This document shows, in pieces, positions 1,921 through 30,337 of a stretch of 30,337 nucleotides of DNA; the first letter of the stretch is position 1; the number at the start of each line of letters is the position of its first letter. The translations under genes were made by a program, and so were the position numbers. Source of the DNA: a virus. The notes beneath the pieces were generated by a model. It made no database searches. It was not told where the DNA came from and worked only from the letters and a program-made list of their open reading frames with translations. The stretch spans positions 1-30,337 of the IMG/VR virus record IMGVR_UViG_3300033145_000449, one strand, 5' to 3'.

Positions 1921-1948
1921 AGTTTATCAAAGGATATATTTATGTCAA
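1921..1948 (-). promoter_or_regulatory. Sigma70-like promoter, leftward, before the clamp operon
   Basis: On the minus strand TTGACA (1943-1948), 16 bp ending TGA, and TAAACT (1921-1926). Boxes, spacer and extended -10 match those at 224-251. The predicted start is near 1914, 41 bases before the ATG at 1873. A DnaA-box-like GTGGATAA (1 mismatch) and the 13-bp motif at 2001-2013 lie just upstream. Confidence 0.75.
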
Positions 1949-2000
1949 GAGTGGATAACTCTATAATACAATGTGGGCGGATTGTCAAGTATGTGTAGTT

Positions 2001-2013
2001 TTGGATTATCCAA
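2001..2013. promoter_or_regulatory. 13-bp quasi-palindrome TTGGATTATCCAA
   Basis: A quasi-palindrome of two 6-bp arms (TTGGAT and ATCCAA) around one central base. Identical copies lie at 5548-5560, 14304-14316 and 30116-30128, and an 11-bp copy at 3333-3343. This copy is about 50 bp upstream of the promoter at 1921-1948, as an operator or activator site would be. Confidence 0.55.
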
Positions 2014-2996: not shown

Positions 2997-3401
2997 GTGC
3001 TAAGCCTAAAATAAAAAGGCGTAAAATACATTCCGCCCCCATTCTCCATTATTTAATATATTTGCGTTGTTCAGTAATTTGCTAATCCGCACCCCGTCTA
3101 ACTCTGAAAATCAGCATTTCTTTTCTCTCATTTTTCAATCAATTACACCACCATTTTTGCCCCCCTGTCAAGTATAGAAAAAAGTCTATTTTTCCCTAAT
3201 TTTTGAGCCCCAAAACTGCCCCAGAATGAAAGAAAATCTCAGGGTGGTGTATTGTATCCTTTTCCCTTTTTTTTCGCCTTAAATCGCAAATTTCAAAAAA
3301 CGACCTCTAAAATATCCTTATTTATAGCCCTCGGATAATCCAAAAAAACGCCCTTTTGTTTTTCCTCCCTCCCTAAAATAGATAGATTCAAAGTTATTCT
3401 A
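2997..3401. other. Intergenic stretch without a recognisable gene
   Basis: No frame with a credible start and protein-like content is seen on either strand. It holds runs of C on the plus strand (CCCCC at several places), a 9-bp inverted repeat TACACCACC / GGTGGTGTA about 90 bp apart (near 3144 and 3243), and the partial 13-bp motif at 3333-3343. The leftward promoter at 3402-3430 would transcribe it. Confidence 0.5.
3333..3343. promoter_or_regulatory. Partial copy (11 bp) of the TTGGATTATCCAA motif
   Basis: The minus strand reads TTGGATTATCC followed by G, so 11 of the 13 bases match. It lies about 60 bp downstream of the promoter at 3402-3430. Confidence 0.4.
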
Positions 3402-3763: not shown

Positions 3764-4119
3764 TCATCAATCATGTAATAATCAGCGACTAAATCTAATT
3801 CGGCTTGTGATAACTCAACCTCTTCATAGCATCCCCAATCTTCCCAGTAATAAACGCCCCCAGTAATACCAGAACCATCAGCAGTAAACTTAAAACCATC
3901 ACCATCGCCCCCCGTTGATAATTGAATCTTGATAACTTTCTCAATGCTAATGCCTAACGGCTCCCGATAATTCTCACTTTCATTATCGCTTTCAATCTTT
4001 CCACTCTCCATTTCCGCCCCTACCTTCTTAATATCCTTCATCTCGTCATTTTTACGATATAAAGCATATGCTCGCAAACTTTCAGGCGTTGCGTGTCCTT
4101 TAATGTTCGGATTTTCCAT
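3754..4119 (-). CDS. Hypothetical acidic protein
   Basis: A 121-residue frame. The N-terminal third (MENPNIKGHATPESLRAYAL) and the next segment are charged and probably flexible. Residues about 60-121 look folded: a Gly-rich stretch (STGGDGDGFKFTADGSGITGG), then YYWEDWGCYEEVELSQAELDLVADYYMIDEWL, which is acidic, aromatic and probably helical. No family recognised. It is first in a two-gene unit and overlaps the next gene. An inverted repeat and a weak promoter lie directly upstream. Confidence 0.65.
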   Translation of the reverse strand: MENPNIKGHATPESLRAYALYRKNDEMKDIKKVGAEMESGKIESDNESENYREPLGISIEKVIKIQLSTGGDGDGFKFTADGSGITGGVYYWEDWGCYEEVELSQAELDLVADYYMIDEWL

Positions 4120-5443: not shown

Positions 5444-5476
5444 TTGCAATTATATCAGCGCCAGAGTATAATGCAA
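5444..5476. promoter_or_regulatory. Dyad-symmetric two-way promoter
   Basis: The near-perfect inverted repeat GCTTGCA-ATTATA / TATAAT-GCAAGC carries promoter boxes on both strands. Leftward: TTGCAT (5471-5476), 16 bp ending TGA, TATAAT (5449-5454). Rightward: TTGCAA (5444-5449), 17 bp, TATAAT (5467-5472). The two promoters occupy the same DNA and should exclude each other. The leftward one serves the operon starting at 5400. Confidence 0.6.
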
Positions 5477-5478
5477 GC

Positions 5479-5502
5479 GTTTACGGTGTAAACTGTGGAT
5501 AA
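5479..5502. promoter_or_regulatory. Palindrome GTTTAC-GGT-GTAAAC next to a DnaA-box-like 9-mer
   Basis: A perfect 6-bp palindrome (5479-5493) abuts TGTGGATAA (5494-5502), the complement of the DnaA box TTATCCACA. The half-site GTGTAAAC recurs in the 17-bp array at 30157-30337. Its position in the divergent region suggests an operator or part of a replication origin. Confidence 0.45.
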
Positions 5503-5547: not shown

Positions 5548-5560
5548 TTGGATTATCCAA
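5548..5560. promoter_or_regulatory. 13-bp motif TTGGATTATCCAA, second copy
   Basis: Identical to the motif at 2001-2013. It contains the stop codon of the 5553-5711 gene on the minus strand and lies about 55 bp from the DnaA-box-like 9-mer. Confidence 0.5.
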
Positions 5561-6007: not shown

Positions 6008-6144
6008 CACAAATAACTAAATTTGTCAATATCAACAGGGGGGGGCGTATGGGGACCATTTGTCTTATATTAATATATATACCCCCACCAAATTTTATAC
6101 TATTCTACTATAATGTAATACAATATATATAATAAGAATATCCC

Positions 6145-6182: not shown

Positions 6183-6749
6183 TTGAAAACTCTATCGATA
6201 GAACAAAAGACTGGTTTATTTATGATGCTTGAAAAGAAAGACCTTTATAAGGTCGGACTTGAGTATGAGTTTGATAAACACTATAAGGATGCTAAAGCCG
6301 TAAAGGGGGCGGTTTATCGTATTTATAGTGATGTTAAGAATCACCCCGATAAATATGGTATTCAACCTATTACTTATAATAAAGTTGTGAATGCTATGTC
6401 TTCTAGGTCTATACAAGGAAAGGCGGTTGACCAAAAGGTTAGTTTGAGAGAAGAGTTAGAAGATTTTGATATAAAGAAGATGGTGTTGTCTAATAGAGAT
6501 AAGGCGGCACTTTTGGTAAGTAGGAAATTAGATAGTATTGGTAAGAGTAAGAAGAAGTTAGATGCTATATCTTTACCTCAATTATCTTTAACTCTTTGTC
6601 AGTTGTTTGATAAAGGACAGATAGTTCAGGGTGAGGCTACTGAACATATAGCACATCTTGCTAAGATTGAAGAAGGATTAAGTGCTAAAGATTTATTAGA
6701 AGCTGTTATTACACAGAGGGAATCTACAATAATTAAGAAGAATAAGTAG
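6183..6749 (+). CDS. terS: Terminase small subunit (probable)
   Basis: A 188-residue protein at the head of the late operon, two genes before the large terminase, where the DNA-recognising small subunit usually lies. Residues 1-60 are helical (IEQKTGLFMMLEKKDLYKVG, then AVKGAVYRIYSDVKNHP) and fit a DNA-binding helix-turn-helix. The middle and end are helical (REELEDFDIKKMVLSNRD, AHLAKIEEGLSAKDLLEAVI), as in oligomerising small terminases. The start used is TTG at 6183, directly behind the -10 box; an in-frame ATG at 6222 is the alternative but would remove part of the helical domain. The tail (KKNK) and stop are repeated twice downstream. Confidence 0.6.
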   Translation: MKTLSIEQKTGLFMMLEKKDLYKVGLEYEFDKHYKDAKAVKGAVYRIYSDVKNHPDKYGIQPITYNKVVNAMSSRSIQGKAVDQKVSLREELEDFDIKKMVLSNRDKAALLVSRKLDSIGKSKKKLDAISLPQLSLTLCQLFDKGQIVQGEATEHIAHLAKIEEGLSAKDLLEAVITQRESTIIKKNK

Positions 6750-6821
6750 ATTCTTCTTAATCCTATTATTAAGAAGAATAAATAGATTCTTCTTAATCCT
6801 ATTATTAAGAAGAATAAATAA
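6732..6821 (+). repeat. 36-bp tandem hairpins repeating the terS tail and stop
   Basis: Period 36 bp, 2.4 copies starting at 6732, 6768 and 6804. Each full unit is a perfect 12-bp stem (ATTAAGAAGAAT / ATTCTTCTTAAT) with a 6-base loop, then CCTATT; the last lacks its right arm. Each left arm and loop spells K-K-N-K-stop, as the gene end does: AAG TAG, AAA TAG, AAA TAA in order. As 36 is a multiple of three, reading through the two TAG codons would stay in frame until TAA. The right arms can pair with the left arm on either side. Confidence 0.9.
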
Positions 6822-14211: not shown

Positions 14212-14505
14212 ATGAGAAGAAACTTAAGTAAGAAAAATTCGACACTCTCCGAAAGGATATTCCACGAATGTTTGAAAGAAATGCATATTCCTTTCAAGCA
14301 CCGTTGGATTATCCAAGGAAGAGAAATAGATTTCATTGTGGGGGATTATGCTATTGAATTAGATGGGCATAACCAAGACCCTATAAAGAATCACATGTTA
14401 TTAAAGGAAGGATATACTCCTATACATTTTAATAACAAAGAGATTATAACTAATAAACAATTAATAAAATTATGTCTGGAACAAATTTTTTTACAGAAAC
14501 AGTAA
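14212..14505 (+). CDS. Vsr/DUF559-like endonuclease, probable homing gene
   Basis: A 97-residue protein with a PD-(D/E)xK-type core: Glu14 (TLSERIFHECL), then REIDFIVGDYAIELDGHNQD with Asp40, Glu49, Asp51, His53 and Asp56, then LLKEGYTPIHFNNKEI, the usual final strand of very-short-patch-repair and DUF559 nucleases. The ExD...DGHxxD spacing also resembles the EDxHD homing endonucleases. At under 100 residues it is short and has no evident DNA-binding extra domain. It sits alone between the capsid and the next virion gene and overlaps that gene by 34 bp, which suggests an inserted homing gene. The 13-bp motif lies inside it. Confidence 0.7.
   Translation: MRRNLSKKNSTLSERIFHECLKEMHIPFKHRWIIQGREIDFIVGDYAIELDGHNQDPIKNHMLLKEGYTPIHFNNKEIITNKQLIKLCLEQIFLQKQ
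14304..14316. promoter_or_regulatory. 13-bp motif TTGGATTATCCAA, third copy
   Basis: Identical to the motif at 2001-2013, here inside the Vsr-like gene where it encodes part of RWIIQG. At 30116 the same bases encode LDNP on the other strand, so the conservation is not of protein. Confidence 0.5.
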
Positions 14506-17085: not shown

Positions 17086-18522
17086 GTGAGCCAACTATTA
17101 AAACAAACACCAGGAATCGGCGGGTTAGATGAAATAACAGATGCAGAAGAACAATTTCTGCAAAATATATCAGGATTATCTTATTCTGCTGGTGATTTAC
17201 TTTATCACAATGGAAGTGATTTGGTTAATTTAGGGATAGGAACACCTTCACAAGTTCTACAAACAAATGCAGAAGCAACAGCACCTGAATGGTCTGATAG
17301 TGGCGCAGCGGGTGAAGCTAATACAGCTTCTAATACAGGCACTCTTGGCACGGGTATATTCAAACAGAAAGTTGGTGTTGATTTAGAACTATATAAAATA
17401 GCTTCAGCAAATAATAGATTGACTGTTGCATTGTCTGGCACCGATTATCTTAATTTAACTTTAGTAGAAGCAAATATAGACCATGATGCATTAACTAATT
17501 TTGTTGCAGGAGAACACTTTTTACAATCTGCGATAACCACAGTTGGCATAATTGGAACTGGAGAGTGGCAGGGAACTGCAGTAGCAGATACTTATATTGC
17601 TTCGGCGGCAACTTGGAACGCTAAACAAGATGCTCTTCCTGTTGTAGATACACAGACAATAATCAAAGGTAGTGTTGATGCTACTAAACTTGTTAGATTT
17701 GAAGTAGATGGTCTTACAACTGCCACAACAAGAATACTAACCGTTCCTGACAAAGATATTACAATAGCAGATAATGCAGACTTACATAGTGCAGTGACAA
17801 TAGGAACTGCTAATGGATTAAGTCTTTCTACTCAAGCTTTAAGTTTAGCGTTAGCAAGCACTAGTGCAACAGGGGCATTAAGTGATACTGATTGGAATAC
17901 TTTTAATGATAAAGCAGAAGCTGACCAAACAATGTATATTGGAACTACTGGTGTAGCTATAAATAGAGCAAGTGCAGCATTGACATTAGCAGGTATTACT
18001 TTAACAACTCCTGATATTGGGACTCCAAGTGCTGGTAATTTAGCAAATTGCACATTTCCAACTCTTAATCAAAACACGACAGGAACAGCTGCAGGGTTAT
18101 CATCTACATTAGCAATAGCAAGTGGTGGGACAGGTTCTACAACCCTAGCAGGAGCAAGTATTCCTACATACACAAGCACAAATACATTCACAAATAAAAG
18201 GATTACATCAAGAGTTGGAACAGTAGCAGATGCAGCGACAATAACTCCTGTAGGAGATAGTAATGATTTATATACTGTTACAGCATTAGCACAGGCAGCA
18301 ACAATAGCAGCACCTAGTGGAACTCCTACAAACGGACAGAAACTAATTATAAGAATTAAAGACAATGGAACTACACGAAGTTTGACTTGGAATGCAATTT
18401 ATAATGTTGTAGGAGTAACATTACCAACAGACACAACAGCAGGTAAAACTCATTATATTGGTTGTATGTACAATACTGCTAATACAAAATGGGATGTTTT
18501 GGCAATAACTGAGGAAGCATGA
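17086..18522 (+). CDS. Tail fibre or receptor-binding-type protein
   Basis: A 478-residue protein with a GTG start. Composition (Thr, Ala, Ser, Gly, few charges) and repeats such as TWNAKQDALPVVDTQTII, LTLAGITLTTPDIGTPSAGN and GTAAGLSSTLAIASGGTGST are characteristic of phage fibres. An N-terminal segment (LKQTPGIGGLDEITDAEEQF) may be the virion-attachment part. The C-terminal end (TNKRITSRVGTVADAATITP, then LIIRIKDNGTTRSLTWNAIY) is a known fibre tip pattern. It would bind the host surface. The ATG of the next gene overlaps its stop. Confidence 0.75.
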   Translation: MSQLLKQTPGIGGLDEITDAEEQFLQNISGLSYSAGDLLYHNGSDLVNLGIGTPSQVLQTNAEATAPEWSDSGAAGEANTASNTGTLGTGIFKQKVGVDLELYKIASANNRLTVALSGTDYLNLTLVEANIDHDALTNFVAGEHFLQSAITTVGIIGTGEWQGTAVADTYIASAATWNAKQDALPVVDTQTIIKGSVDATKLVRFEVDGLTTATTRILTVPDKDITIADNADLHSAVTIGTANGLSLSTQALSLALASTSATGALSDTDWNTFNDKAEADQTMYIGTTGVAINRASAALTLAGITLTTPDIGTPSAGNLANCTFPTLNQNTTGTAAGLSSTLAIASGGTGSTTLAGASIPTYTSTNTFTNKRITSRVGTVADAATITPVGDSNDLYTVTALAQAATIAAPSGTPTNGQKLIIRIKDNGTTRSLTWNAIYNVVGVTLPTDTTAGKTHYIGCMYNTANTKWDVLAITEEA

Positions 18523-18728
18523 TTATGATTGAAAACTTACTAAAAAACAAAACAGTGCTTGGTCGCTTAGAACAAGCAACCTCAAAACGAAAAGCCAAAA
18601 TCAAATCTAAAGAATTGGCTAAATTTTCTATGAAATTTTCAGATTATTGGCATAAGGAAATTTGTATTTTAATTCCAATTATAGTCGTCTGGACTGTTTT
18701 ATTAGTTATGATTTATTTTAAGATATAA
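18519..18728 (+). CDS. Small single-span membrane protein
   Basis: A 69-residue frame with a basic cytoplasmic-looking front (RLEQATSKRKAKIKSKELAK) and one C-terminal membrane segment (about 48-66, ICILIPIIVVWTVLLVMIYF). The gene overlaps the fibre gene by 4 bp; a second in-frame ATG lies 6 bp on. A lysis or entry role is possible; it could be a holin-like or spanin-like part, but no lytic enzyme is seen in the window. The HNH gene begins at its last base. Confidence 0.6.
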   Translation: MIMIENLLKNKTVLGRLEQATSKRKAKIKSKELAKFSMKFSDYWHKEICILIPIIVVWTVLLVMIYFKI

Positions 18729-19216
18729 TGGCAAAAAAATGGATATGTAAAAAATGTGGGAAAGTTGAGTATTTGAAATACAAAACCTTTTGGTATAGAA
18801 AACATATTGGAACTGGTATGTGCCAGAGTTGTTCAAATCTTGGTAAAAGAGGGGGTTTTGCTAAGGGTTGTATCCCTTGGAATAAAGGTTTAATTGGTTT
18901 TTTGGGTGGTGATAAACATTATAACTGGCAGAATAAAAGAGATGAAAGAATTACTAATCATTATTTGAGAAATAATCGTGAAGCCAAGGATTGGAAAAGA
19001 AAAGTATTTGAAAGGGATGGTTTTAAATGTCTTGATTGTGGTTCTAATAAACAATTAAATGCACACCATATTACATCATTTAAAGAAGATGAAAACAGAA
19101 GATTTGAAATTAATAATGGAATTACTATTTGTAGTAAATGTCATAAAAAAACTTATTGCAAAGAAGAACAATTTGAAACAGTATATTATTCATTAATACC
19201 ACAATATCATGGCTAA
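18728..19216 (+). CDS. HNH homing-type endonuclease
   Basis: A 162-residue protein. Zinc-binding pairs Cys7-x2-Cys10 and Cys32-x2-Cys35 lead, followed by GCIPWNKGLIG (NUMOD3-like linker, about 47-57). The HNH nuclease follows at about 90-142: WKRKVFERDGFKCLDCG (Cys101, Cys104), NAHHITSF (His113, His114), NNGITICSKCHKK (Asn129 or Asn130, Cys135, Cys138). All key residues are present, so it is probably active. It overlaps both neighbours (1 bp and 8 bp) and is not part of a virion function; it is a free-standing homing gene as in T4-like phages. Confidence 0.85.
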   Translation: MAKKWICKKCGKVEYLKYKTFWYRKHIGTGMCQSCSNLGKRGGFAKGCIPWNKGLIGFLGGDKHYNWQNKRDERITNHYLRNNREAKDWKRKVFERDGFKCLDCGSNKQLNAHHITSFKEDENRRFEINNGITICSKCHKKTYCKEEQFETVYYSLIPQYHG

Positions 19217-19907
19217 TGTCGCATCAATAGACCTCGAACTTGATAGTTCACAATATCTTTCAAAGACAGATACGGCTTCTTTATCTATTATTGGGGATTT
19301 AACTTTAGAAATGTGGGTTAAATTTGAGAGTATAACGGGCACTAACAGATTAATATCAAAATATATTTATAATGCAAGTGATGATAGATCTTATGCTTTT
19401 GATAATAGTGCAGATACAATAAGACTTGTAATAAGTGATGATGGAATAGGAATAACTACAGTATCTGTTAGTTGGACACCTTCATTAGCTACTTGGTATC
19501 ATATGGCAGTAACTTATGATGCAAGTGCTGGTAGTGCCACTTTTTATATCGATGGTGTTCAACAAGGGGCAACACAAACAGGATTGGATACAAGTATTTA
19601 CGATGGAACAGCACCATTTGAAATAGGTGCAGTAGACAACGGAGGAACAATAAATTTTGACGGTCTTATAGACGAAGTCCGAGTATGGAGCGACATCAGA
19701 ACAGCCACTGAAATATCAGATAATTATCAAAAAGAATTAACAGGAAGCGAAGCAAACCTTGTAGGATATTGGAAATTAAATAATGACCTTTTAGACGAAA
19801 CTTCAAACAACAATGATTTAACGAATAATAATTCAGCGACATTTAGCACAGATGTTCCCTTTAGTGGAGCAGCATCAGGAAATTCTAACTTCTTCCAATT
19901 CTTTTAA
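19209..19907 (+). CDS. LamG/concanavalin-like carbohydrate-binding virion protein
   Basis: A 232-residue protein. Residues about 8-180 match the LamG (laminin G, jelly-roll) pattern: DLTLEMWVKFESITGTNRLI, then TWYHMAVTYDASAGSATFYI and DGVQQG, INFDGLIDEVRVWSDIRTAT, and LVGYWKLNND. Such domains bind glycans, so this is likely a surface-adhesion or receptor-binding protein. The C-terminus is Asn/Thr-rich (ETSNNNDLTNNNSATF) and ends FFQFF. It follows the HNH gene with an 8-bp overlap, so the endonuclease may have been inserted directly before it. Confidence 0.75.
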   Translation: MANVASIDLELDSSQYLSKTDTASLSIIGDLTLEMWVKFESITGTNRLISKYIYNASDDRSYAFDNSADTIRLVISDDGIGITTVSVSWTPSLATWYHMAVTYDASAGSATFYIDGVQQGATQTGLDTSIYDGTAPFEIGAVDNGGTINFDGLIDEVRVWSDIRTATEISDNYQKELTGSEANLVGYWKLNNDLLDETSNNNDLTNNNSATFSTDVPFSGAASGNSNFFQFF

Positions 19908-19912
19908 TATCT

Positions 19913-19953
19913 ATTCAATTTATGAATTAAATTTCATTTACATTCAATTTATG
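19913..19953 (+). repeat. Duplicated ribosome-entry segment before 19951 gene
   Basis: ATTCAATTTATG occurs at 19913-19924 and again at 19942-19953, 29 bp apart, the second containing the start codon of the next gene. The first ATG is followed by AAT TAA and codes nothing. ATGAA and TTCAT between them form a small stem. This looks like a start-side counterpart of the tail duplications. Confidence 0.55.
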
Positions 19954-20196
19954 CAAAAAGACATTAACAATTTAAAAATATCTATAATGAAGATAGAAAC
20001 AAATTATGAGCACATCTTAGAGGCTTTAGATGATAACAAAGAGCAACACACAGAGATAATGCAGAAAATGGAAGACTGGATAAAGGCTTCTGAAAAGAAA
20101 TTCGCAAGTAAATGGACAGAGAGAGTTTTGGTGTGGGCGGGAATGGCAATCGGTGGAACATTAATAGTAGCATTATTATCGTTGATTATTAAATAA
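19951..20196 (+). CDS. Coiled-coil plus membrane-anchor protein (XhlA-like)
   Basis: An 81-residue protein from ATG at 19951. An N-terminal helix (DINNLKISIMKIETNYEHIL, EQHTEIMQKMEDWIKASEKK) is followed by one membrane segment (about 58-79, VLVWAGMAIGGTLIVALLSL) and a short tail. The layout matches XhlA/holin-associated small proteins of lysis cassettes. A longer frame opening at 19852 overlaps LamG coding bases and is unlikely. The gene's last codons are repeated 43 bp downstream. It forms a pair with the next membrane protein. Confidence 0.65.
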   Translation: MQKDINNLKISIMKIETNYEHILEALDDNKEQHTEIMQKMEDWIKASEKKFASKWTERVLVWAGMAIGGTLIVALLSLIIK

Positions 20197-20239
20197 TGAA
20201 TCAACAATAATTACATTATTAGAATTAATTATTAAGTAA
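20173..20239 (+). repeat. Duplicated gene tail with hairpin (tail echo)
   Basis: The last codons of the 19951-20196 gene read L-L-S-L-I-I-K-stop (20173-20196). A second stretch at 20216-20239 reads L-L-E-L-I-I-K-stop, ending 1 bp before the next ATG. TTG/TTA and AAA/AAG differ silently. Between the copies AATCAAC is the inverted complement of GTTGATT in the first copy, with pairing extendable to 13 positions with one mismatch. Spacing is 43 bp, not a multiple of three. Confidence 0.8.
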
Positions 20240-20240
20240 T

Positions 20241-20438
20241 ATGAAAATTATATCAGAAGAAAATAAAGTTATCCTCCTAAAGAGAATAAAAAGTTTTGGA
20301 TGGAGGATAGGTATGGTGGTAGTTGTAGCAGGACTTAACTTCGTGGCGGCGAACTTAAACCTATTTAATCTACCAACAGAAGTAATAGTAGTAGTATCTT
20401 TGGTTCTTTCAGAGATAACAAAACAACTAAATAAGTAG
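20241..20438 (+). CDS. Small two-span membrane protein, holin-like
   Basis: A 65-residue protein with a basic N-terminus (ENKVILLKRIKSFGWR), a hydrophobic segment (about 23-37, IGMVVVVAGLNFVAA), an Asn/Leu turn (NLNLFNLPTE) and a second hydrophobic segment (about 47-60, VIVVVSLVLSE), ending Lys-rich. Size and layout match class II holins, and the preceding XhlA-like gene supports a lysis cassette, though no endolysin is seen in the window. Its tail QLNK and stop are repeated twice downstream (20453-20496). The start lies 1 bp after the tail copy of the gene before. Confidence 0.6.
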   Translation: MKIISEENKVILLKRIKSFGWRIGMVVVVAGLNFVAANLNLFNLPTEVIVVVSLVLSEITKQLNK

Positions 20439-20496
20439 AAATACTTATTTTGCAACTAAATAAATAGTAATATTTATTTTGCAGTTGAATAAATAA
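20424..20496 (+). repeat. 29-bp tandem hairpins repeating the holin-like gene tail
   Basis: Period 29 bp. Three stretches spell Q-L-N-K-stop: CAA CTA AAT AAG TAG (20424), CAA CTA AAT AAA TAG (20453), CAG TTG AAT AAA TAA (20482). All differences are silent or swap stop codons. The first two are followed by an inverted arm (AAATAAGT / ACTTATTT, then AAATAAAT / ATTTATTT), so the stems change together. The third stop is 3 bp before the next ATG. As 29 is not a multiple of three, each copy is in a different frame. Confidence 0.9.
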
Positions 20497-20499
20497 TTT

Positions 20500-21321
20500 A
20501 TGGAAGATGAAAGAATAGAACAACAGAAATATAATCCAAGGGATTCTATTTCCCAATTAGAACAAAAGGTAGAAGACCTTACTAACAAACTAAATGAACA
20601 GTCTAGGGAGTTTGAGGAGTTTAAAAAATTATATGAGTTACACCAACATAATGGATATGATGATACAACTAGATTAAGTGGGACATTAGAAATAAAAGAT
20701 GGTAATTTTATAAATTTAGGAAATACTTATAGAGCATCACTAAATCAGTGGGCAGGAACAGCATCAGAAGAGAATAAATTTATACTTGCAGTAGGAAATG
20801 ATGGAACTACTGGATTTAGTAAATCAACTTCTAATACACAATTTGAAATAATAAACCAACCAGGAACTAACGGAAGTACAAATCAATCATTTATACAAGC
20901 ATTTAGAAGTCCTGTATATGCTAACGAAGGAATAGCAATAACTTCTGGCTCAGCTACAGTAACAGATGGTTTCTTTACTTGGGATACTAATGAATTAGCA
21001 GGAGCTTATATAGCATTATTCGATACAGATGGTCACTTAAAAGAAACTTATACAATCTCATCTAATACAGCAAACGCTATAACAATGAGTAGTAATGCAA
21101 CATTTACAGATTCAGATGCCTCTTATACAGTATTTATGCCAGTTTATTTTGGCTCAGCAGCATTTCCTTTTAGAAGACTTTATACAAGTGAAGGAACTGG
21201 AGGTGGTATAAGAATAGGTCAAGGACCGACTGCTGGAGGACAAAACGGATTATTATATATGGATTCTTCGGGAGATTTATATTGGAGGAATACAGGAGGG
21301 TCAGCAGTTAAATTAAATTAA
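20500..21321 (+). CDS. Fibre or baseplate-type virion protein
   Basis: A 273-residue protein. An N-terminal coiled coil (about 17-45, SQLEQKVEDLTNKLNEQSRE) leads into LHQHNGYDDTTRLSG (about 46-60), a motif seen at the start of phage fibre knobs (H-x-H-N-x-x-D). The remainder is beta-rich with Gly/Thr/Ser repeats (FFTWDTNELAGAYIALFDTD) and a Gly-rich end (GQGPTAGGQNGLLYMDSSGD). It is probably trimeric and surface exposed. It follows the holin-like pair and precedes a large beta protein, so it may be part of a tail-tip or appendage set. Confidence 0.65.
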   Translation: MEDERIEQQKYNPRDSISQLEQKVEDLTNKLNEQSREFEEFKKLYELHQHNGYDDTTRLSGTLEIKDGNFINLGNTYRASLNQWAGTASEENKFILAVGNDGTTGFSKSTSNTQFEIINQPGTNGSTNQSFIQAFRSPVYANEGIAITSGSATVTDGFFTWDTNELAGAYIALFDTDGHLKETYTISSNTANAITMSSNATFTDSDASYTVFMPVYFGSAAFPFRRLYTSEGTGGGIRIGQGPTAGGQNGLLYMDSSGDLYWRNTGGSAVKLN

Positions 21322-29095: not shown

Positions 29096-29629
29096 TTACT
29101 GATTGAAATTAACGCCAAAACTCTCTGTCTTTTTATGACAATCTCGACATAAGGTTTGACCATTATCTAGATTCCACAATTCTGCACAATTGATTGCTTC
29201 TTGATATGTTTTGATATCATTATCTCCCATTATAGATGAAAAAGATTTTATGTGGTGGGCATTTAATATTATTCTCTCCTTCGTTTCTTTATTCCAACCA
29301 CCTCTTTTATTACACATTTGGCATGTAAAATTGTCTCTAACAAAAATATTCATTCTCCACATTTTATATTCTACCAAACTTTTTACATGTTTGTTTATGG
29401 GGGTTATTCCACCTTTCCAAAATGTGCATTTTTCACCTCTGTGTGCATCACCAATCTTTCTTCTTGCTTCCTCTGAAAACTGTTTTCCTTTATTTGCTTC
29501 ACTAATTTTTCTGCGATGTTCTTCTGACTGTCTCCCTGATTTTTTTCTGTTTGGAAATTTAATCTTACCAATTAAACCCCTATTCCATGGCTTGAATCCT
29601 TTAATGAATTGTCCTTTTTTGTTTCTCAT
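29096..29629 (-). CDS. NUMOD3-HNH homing endonuclease
   Basis: A 177-residue protein. N-terminal GFKPWNRGLIG (about 11-21) is followed by two NUMOD3-type DNA-binding repeats (SEEHRRKISEANKG about 35-48 and SEEARRKIGDAHRG about 52-65). The HNH core is complete: NIFVRDNFTCQMC (Cys103, Cys106), ILNAHHIKSF (His125, His126), LDNGQTLCRDCHKK (Asn156, Cys161, Cys164). A promoter directly upstream gives a leader of about 7 bases. It shares the PWN-x-GLIG segment with the HNH protein at 18728, so the two are probably related. It is a free-standing homing gene. Confidence 0.85.
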   Translation of the reverse strand: MRNKKGQFIKGFKPWNRGLIGKIKFPNRKKSGRQSEEHRRKISEANKGKQFSEEARRKIGDAHRGEKCTFWKGGITPINKHVKSLVEYKMWRMNIFVRDNFTCQMCNKRGGWNKETKERIILNAHHIKSFSSIMGDNDIKTYQEAINCAELWNLDNGQTLCRDCHKKTESFGVNFNQ

Positions 29630-29964: not shown

Positions 29965-30155
29965 TGTTTTATTATCCACTTTAATAATTCTTCTTTTTCT
30001 TTTCCTCTTCTATAATCATTCTTATCTACTAGTTTATCAAAGTATTTTCTTATATATGGGGCGGAATAAAACCTACCTCTAATAGTCTTGATAAAACAAA
30101 CCAATGATGAAAGTCTTGGATTATCCAAAGTTATTTTATTAAATTCTATTCGCAT
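29961..30155 (-). CDS. Hypothetical basic protein at the repeat array
   Basis: A 64-residue frame, MRIEFNKITLDNPRLSSLVC to a basic, helical end (YIRKYFDKLVDKNDYRRGKE, then LLKWIIKQ). Composition would suit a small DNA-binding protein, but no HTH spacing is clear. The 17-bp array begins one base before its start codon, so the last repeat provides the whole ribosome-binding region (GAGATAAAC). It overlaps the next gene in an ATGA. A repeat-binding or autoregulating role is possible from position. Confidence 0.55.
   Translation of the reverse strand: MRIEFNKITLDNPRLSSLVCFIKTIRGRFYSAPYIRKYFDKLVDKNDYRRGKEKEELLKWIIKQ
30116..30128. promoter_or_regulatory. 13-bp motif TTGGATTATCCAA, fourth copy
   Basis: Identical to the motif at 2001-2013. 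It lies inside the 29961-30155 gene, about 30 bp from the 17-bp array, and encodes part of LDNP on the minus strand. Confidence 0.5.
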
Positions 30156-30156
30156 G

Positions 30157-30337
30157 TTTATCTCTGTGTAAACTTTATCTCTGTGTAAACTTTATCTCTG
30201 TGTAAACTTTATCTCTGAGTAAACTTTATCTCTGTGTAAACTTTATCTCTGAGTAAACTTTATCTCTGAGTAAACTTTATCTCTGAGTAAACTTTATCTC
30301 TGAGTAAACTTTATCTCTGAGTAAACTTTATCTCTGA
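30157..30337. repeat. 17-bp tandem repeat array, cut by the window edge
   Basis: Ten full units of TTTATCTCTGTGTAAAC or TTTATCTCTGAGTAAAC and an 11-base partial unit run from 30157 to the window end. Units 1, 2, 3 and 5 have GTG, units 4 and 6-10 GAG; otherwise they are identical. As 17 is not a multiple of three the array cannot be one repeated peptide. Direct repeats of this size resemble replication iterons or a set of repressor sites. The half-site GTGTAAAC also occurs in the control region at 5486-5493. The far end of the array is not visible. Confidence 0.95.

Follow-up and report, generated by a model that had tools for sequence, protein, structure and literature searches.

The stretch of DNA analysed here, referred to as the window, covers all 30,337 nucleotides of the IMG/VR record IMGVR_UViG_3300033145_000449 and represents part of the genome of an uncultured tailed phage. 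Rightward late genes begin at 6183 with a TerS-like gene, a name inferred from its position ahead of the terminase; among those that follow are the genes for the large terminase subunit (7168) and a head-tail connector protein (9294). The genes left of about 5400, one of which is related to a DNA polymerase processivity factor, read leftward and are presumably early, and the GC skew switches sign at the junction of the leftward and rightward genes near 5500. No RNA families or tRNAs were detected in the window. The relatives are all metagenomic, and the best full-length one, G018 (51 kb, 64% terminase identity), is syntenic across the late genes. For the leftward genes of the left arm, no homologues were found among the relatives compared, and the clamp-like gene, used as a probe for conservation of the region around 2001, retrieved no relatives. 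A host assignment based on a terminase relative located on a 3.8-kb low-coverage contig of an “archaeon” MAG was rejected as too weak; that assembly gave no match to a DnaA domain.

Several other features were recorded along the window and in its relatives. The contig ends within a tandem array at 30157–30337, in which a 17-bp unit (TTTATCTCTGAGTAAAC, 98% matches) is present in 10.6 copies. The array lies immediately upstream of the small leftward gene containing copy 4 of the word described below; its unit length is iteron-like, and it is probably the reason why the assembly stops there. At about 6040–6100, 100–200 bp upstream of the TerS-like gene, a G-rich run, a stretch of alternating AT and then a C-rich run succeed one another (GGGGGGGCGTATGGGGAC ... 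ATATATATACCCCC), and a similar element, a candidate cos or pac site, is present in L006, L048, L008 and G018. A 36-bp tandem repeat with an inverted repeat in each unit (6732–6820, 2.5 copies) lies just past the TerS-like gene. The window contains two free-standing HNH endonuclease genes (18728–19216 and 29096–29629), the second of which has a relative in L008. G018 encodes an MT-A70 methyltransferase as well as a DnaB-like helicase whose gene (18165–20684, L035/L036) is interrupted by an intein that has Hint and LAGLIDADG-type homing domains.

The first-pass annotation had reported a 13-bp quasi-palindrome in four exact copies and one partial copy, with far less than one copy expected. A scan of the window recovered TTGGATTATCCAA exactly at 2001, 5548, 14304 and 30116 (Table 1), a count that applies to the 30-kb window, which lacks part of the early region present in G018. 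The partial copy exists too, with a corrected extent: instead of 11 bases at 3333, it spans 3331–3343, reads TCGGATAATCCAA on the plus strand and matches the word at 12 of 13 bases on the minus strand. Sites with exactly two mismatches to TTGGATNATCCAA do not occur in the window. Markov models of orders 0–4 predict 0.001–0.003 copies of TTGGATTATCCAA and 0.001–0.006 copies of TTGGATAATCCAA, or about 0.002–0.009 exact copies, depending on the order, when both centre bases are pooled, in agreement with the earlier estimate. None of 100 third-order Markov simulations produced a 13-mer with four copies, and outside the terminal 17-bp tandem array TTGGATTATCCAA is the only 13-mer in the window that reaches this number. 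The recurrence of the word is therefore real and beyond chance expectation. All four exact copies have the same plus-strand form with a central T, whatever the direction of the gene, and the perfect palindrome is longest at 2001, followed by 5548 (Table 1), and measures 13 bp at both 14304 and 30116. The best-supported sites are the intergenic ones at 2001, 5548 and 3331; the ORFs that overlap the copy at 5548 look spurious.

Table 1. Copies of the palindromic word in the window, with the neighbouring promoter-like sites and DnaA-type boxes.
Feature	Position	Strand	Context
Copy 1, 17-bp perfect palindrome TTTTGGATTATCCAAAA	1999..2015		Intergenic; leftward promoter-like site 1948-1921 lies downstream
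Imperfect copy TTGGATTATCCGA, one mismatch	3331..3343	-	Intergenic
Copy 2, 15-bp perfect palindrome TTTGGATTATCCAAA	5547..5561		Divergent region between leftward early genes and rightward TerS-like gene
Copy 3	14304..14316		In nuclease-like gene; encodes RWIIQG
Copy 4	30116..30128		First codons of small leftward gene 30155-29961; encodes LDNP
Promoter-like TTGACA-16-TAAACT	1921..1948	-	Reads leftward; consensus match only
Promoter-like TTTACA-16-TATACT	5465..5492	-	Reads leftward; consensus match only
DnaA-type box TTATCCACT	1950..1958	-	Immediately upstream of promoter-like site at 1948
DnaA box TTATCCACA	5494..5502	-	Upstream of early leftward promoter-like site

A look near promoters had been suggested as a check, and the copies at 2001 and 5548 indeed each have a leftward, early promoter-like site, as judged by consensus, a short distance downstream. 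On the minus strand, TTGACA occurs 12 bases past the palindrome at 2001 and 10 bases past the one at 5548. Recurrence near promoters, which is the mark of a phage operator, was thus found for these two copies by consensus promoters and not for those at 14304 and 30116. Both palindromes are also accompanied, at a distance of about 50 bases, by a TTATCCAC(A/T) box that abuts the promoter-like site. The word TTATCCAC occurs three times in the window (1950, 5494 and 29972), each time less than 150 bp from an exact copy of the palindrome; the chance of this clustering is near 1e-4 by a rough estimate for a pattern that was noticed post hoc.

The DnaA box is TTATCCACA, and promoters regulated by DnaA include lambda pR. 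The half-site of the palindrome, TTATCCA(A/C), is also that of the DnaA box, although the palindrome of the window deviates from the exact consensus, as it contains TTATCCAAA, which is one base off TTATCCACA. The exact box is found inside those copies of the related record G024 that have A/T at the centre and inside the copy of L048, whose syntenic element TTTTGGATTATCCACAG consists of one half of the window palindrome and one half of a perfect DnaA box. In the phage family, TTATCCACA, which precedes the best promoter-like sites, is over-represented about five times (29 vs. 5.95 expected), a ratio exceeding those of all 150 words drawn from its permutations, compared with 29 vs. 24 expected in other phage loci. 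Among the boxes examined, 17 are intergenic, although only about 14% of the positions are, and seven of these 17 have a promoter-like site (at least 10/12) no more than 45 bp downstream, as opposed to 3.4% of random intergenic places. Many relatives have boxes of this type on the leftward strand upstream of the TerS-like gene, even some that lack the palindrome, such as L006, which keeps a TTATCAACA box. A search on DnaA boxes with phage early promoters found nothing relevant in the literature covered.

Conservation of the word itself is restricted to a subset of relatives. G018 carries the exact word at 34825, in the region matching the divergent region of the window and at a similar distance from the TerS-like match (657 bp vs. 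635 bp in the window), and syntenic versions with one mismatch are present in L008 (TAGGATAATCCAA at −756) and L048 (GTGGATAATCCAA at −474). In a scan of 49 upstream regions, five records contained the word when one mismatch was allowed, in three cases exactly, whereas 59 letter-permuted palindromes used as a control gave a mean of 0.36 and a maximum of 2 records, and the 15 best of these controls included no exact match. The exact copy of L075 was rejected as a syntenic site because it lies inside the TerS coding sequence, which leaves four records, the window included. The spacing between palindrome and promoter is not alike in the window and G018. The count in relatives, also suggested earlier, gave a mixed result: the word is kept in the nearest full-length relative and has a G/C-flanked variant in G024, but it is absent from most relatives, including L006 with 78% terminase identity.

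Among thirteen records of the family, only the window (TTGGAT-N-ATCCAA) and G024 (GTGGAT-N-ATCCAC) contain at least three copies of one palindrome. Their words have the core TGGATNATCCA in common, which occurs 12 times in the thirteen records against 0.77 expected but shows no excess across 2.1 Mb from other phage loci (5 vs. 3.9 expected). For pairs of the form TGGA-Nk-TCCA, a gap of three bases is the commonest, mainly through the window, G024, G018 and L008. Scans of the collection for TGTGGATNATCCACA and TTTGGATNATCCAAA gave nearly always single copies among the matches listed, and no further multi-copy group appeared among them except for L326 with two copies. In this phage contig, TTTGGATTATCCAAA is found at 3792–3806 and 6047–6061, within 2.3 kb. 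Literature searches on the word and its core returned only unrelated papers.

Based on these sequence features, we propose, with a probability of roughly one half, that the word is the binding site of a sequence-specific protein that controls leftward, early transcription. A repressor or activator site was among the candidates named in the first-pass annotation, and for the intergenic copies it is supported by the promoter-like neighbours and by the synteny in G018, L008 and L048. The palindrome can be read as a pair of TTATCCA(A/C) half-sites in inverted orientation with a central overlap (TGGAT-N-ATCCA), to which a dimer or two protomers could bind. The palindromes at 2001 and 5548 are located a few tens of bp upstream of the early promoter-like sites, a placement that favours activation, and across the family a single TTATCCACA box lies upstream of the −35 element of such sites. 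Since palindrome and box have the half-site in common, one protein may read both. The simplest candidate for this protein is host DnaA, and a phage regulator binding as a dimer to a similar half-site would be the alternative. Among the proteins scanned, no clear gene for a cognate regulator was recognised; ORF 678–995 matches a DNA-binding-like N-terminal domain only weakly, and most of the early region lies outside the window.

Three known systems come closest to the element. With the DnaA box it shares the half-site TTATCCA, and exact TTATCCACA boxes lie upstream of the early promoter-like sites of the family, but the DnaA box is an asymmetric 9-mer, whereas the site described here has two-fold symmetry and, in the window, the outer base A instead of C. 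Like the operators of lambda-type repressors and activators, it is a short palindrome in several copies near divergent early promoters; it differs from them in that no repressor gene was found among the proteins scanned, that copies also lie in genes and that it is limited to a subset of relatives. The stoperators of mycobacteriophage L5 are asymmetric 13-bp sites in tens of copies that are oriented with transcription. Sites of 13 bp dispersed along a phage genome are found here as well, but with 4–6 near-symmetric copies, several of them in genes, and the word of the window is a near-perfect palindrome with four copies.

The copies inside genes require separate consideration, since the first-pass annotation had concluded from their different residues that selection acts on the DNA. 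For the intergenic copies, promoter proximity and the synteny in G018, L008 and L048 agree with this, whereas the argument from the coding copies is weaker. The peptide RWIIQG at 14304 is conserved, is written TGG ATA ATC CA(A/T) in L005, G018, L054 and L055, and its codons give TGGATAATCCA in several homologues, so that this copy needs little beyond protein conservation. At 30116, the DNP of LDNP is kept in the G018 homologue of the gene. Conserved peptides thus account for part of both copies, which may be coding by-products or accessory sites. It is also conceivable that the recurrence is mostly coincidental, with one or two real intergenic sites and coding copies that result from such peptides in the codon set of the genome. 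Two findings fit this view: the exact copy of L075 and one of the G024 copies coincide with the same TerS peptide (VLDNP and VVDDP, respectively), and all 51 kb of G018 contain just a single exact copy. However, both records with repeated palindromes share one core, and synonymous permutation within each genome and shuffling of codon order yield far fewer coding copies. Under synonymous permutation, 0.017 were expected in the window against 2 observed, and in G024 0.07 copies of GTGGATNATCCAC against 5 observed, all of them in genes and read in frames giving VDDP, GSST, GLST, VDYP and VDNP. We therefore consider coincidence rather unlikely. The excess over the shuffles leaves room for a DNA-level signal inside genes, and the case for a control site is independent of that signal.

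A replication-origin element, in which paired DnaA-type boxes at the divergence of leftward and rightward genes load the replication machinery, would explain why boxes and palindrome occur together near 5500 at the change in GC skew, and copy 4 adjoins the tandem array with its iteron-like unit length. On the other hand, the skew change also tracks gene direction, and the boxes are dispersed across the early region and go with promoter-like sites instead of forming a single cluster, which makes an origin unlikely. The several frames in which the G024 gene copies are read would suit a dispersed signal for genome organisation, partition or packaging that is kept within and between genes, but the copies are few and missing from most relatives, a packaging site should occupy a single conserved position, and no partition protein was recognised among the proteins scanned. 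The partition or packaging site proposed earlier found no support, and this explanation is very unlikely. The same is true, to an even greater extent, of a target for methylation, restriction or a homing endonuclease, for which the HNH genes of the window and the MT-A70 methyltransferase of G018 might speak. A genome is expected to avoid restriction targets instead of accumulating them, and a homing target is usually long and occurs once, which counts against both; the copies have no fixed position relative to the HNH genes, and no support was found for the methylation target or the homing site named previously. This last group of functions appears highly improbable.

Returning to the control site for early transcription, a more specific version is conceivable, which is speculative and probably does not hold in full. 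The element would be a symmetric site made of two overlapping DnaA-type sites, with T/A or G/C on either side of TGGATNATCCA. It would serve the family as a signal by which host DnaA and early transcription are coupled and would have been retained at dispersed positions within genes as well, the outer base pair differing between members as if the specificity of the reader were drifting. For a phage family represented here by metagenomes alone, the word offers a control element that can be tested, and the family-wide presence of DnaA-type boxes before early promoter-like sequences suggests that these phages may sense the replication state of the host at the start of their early programme.
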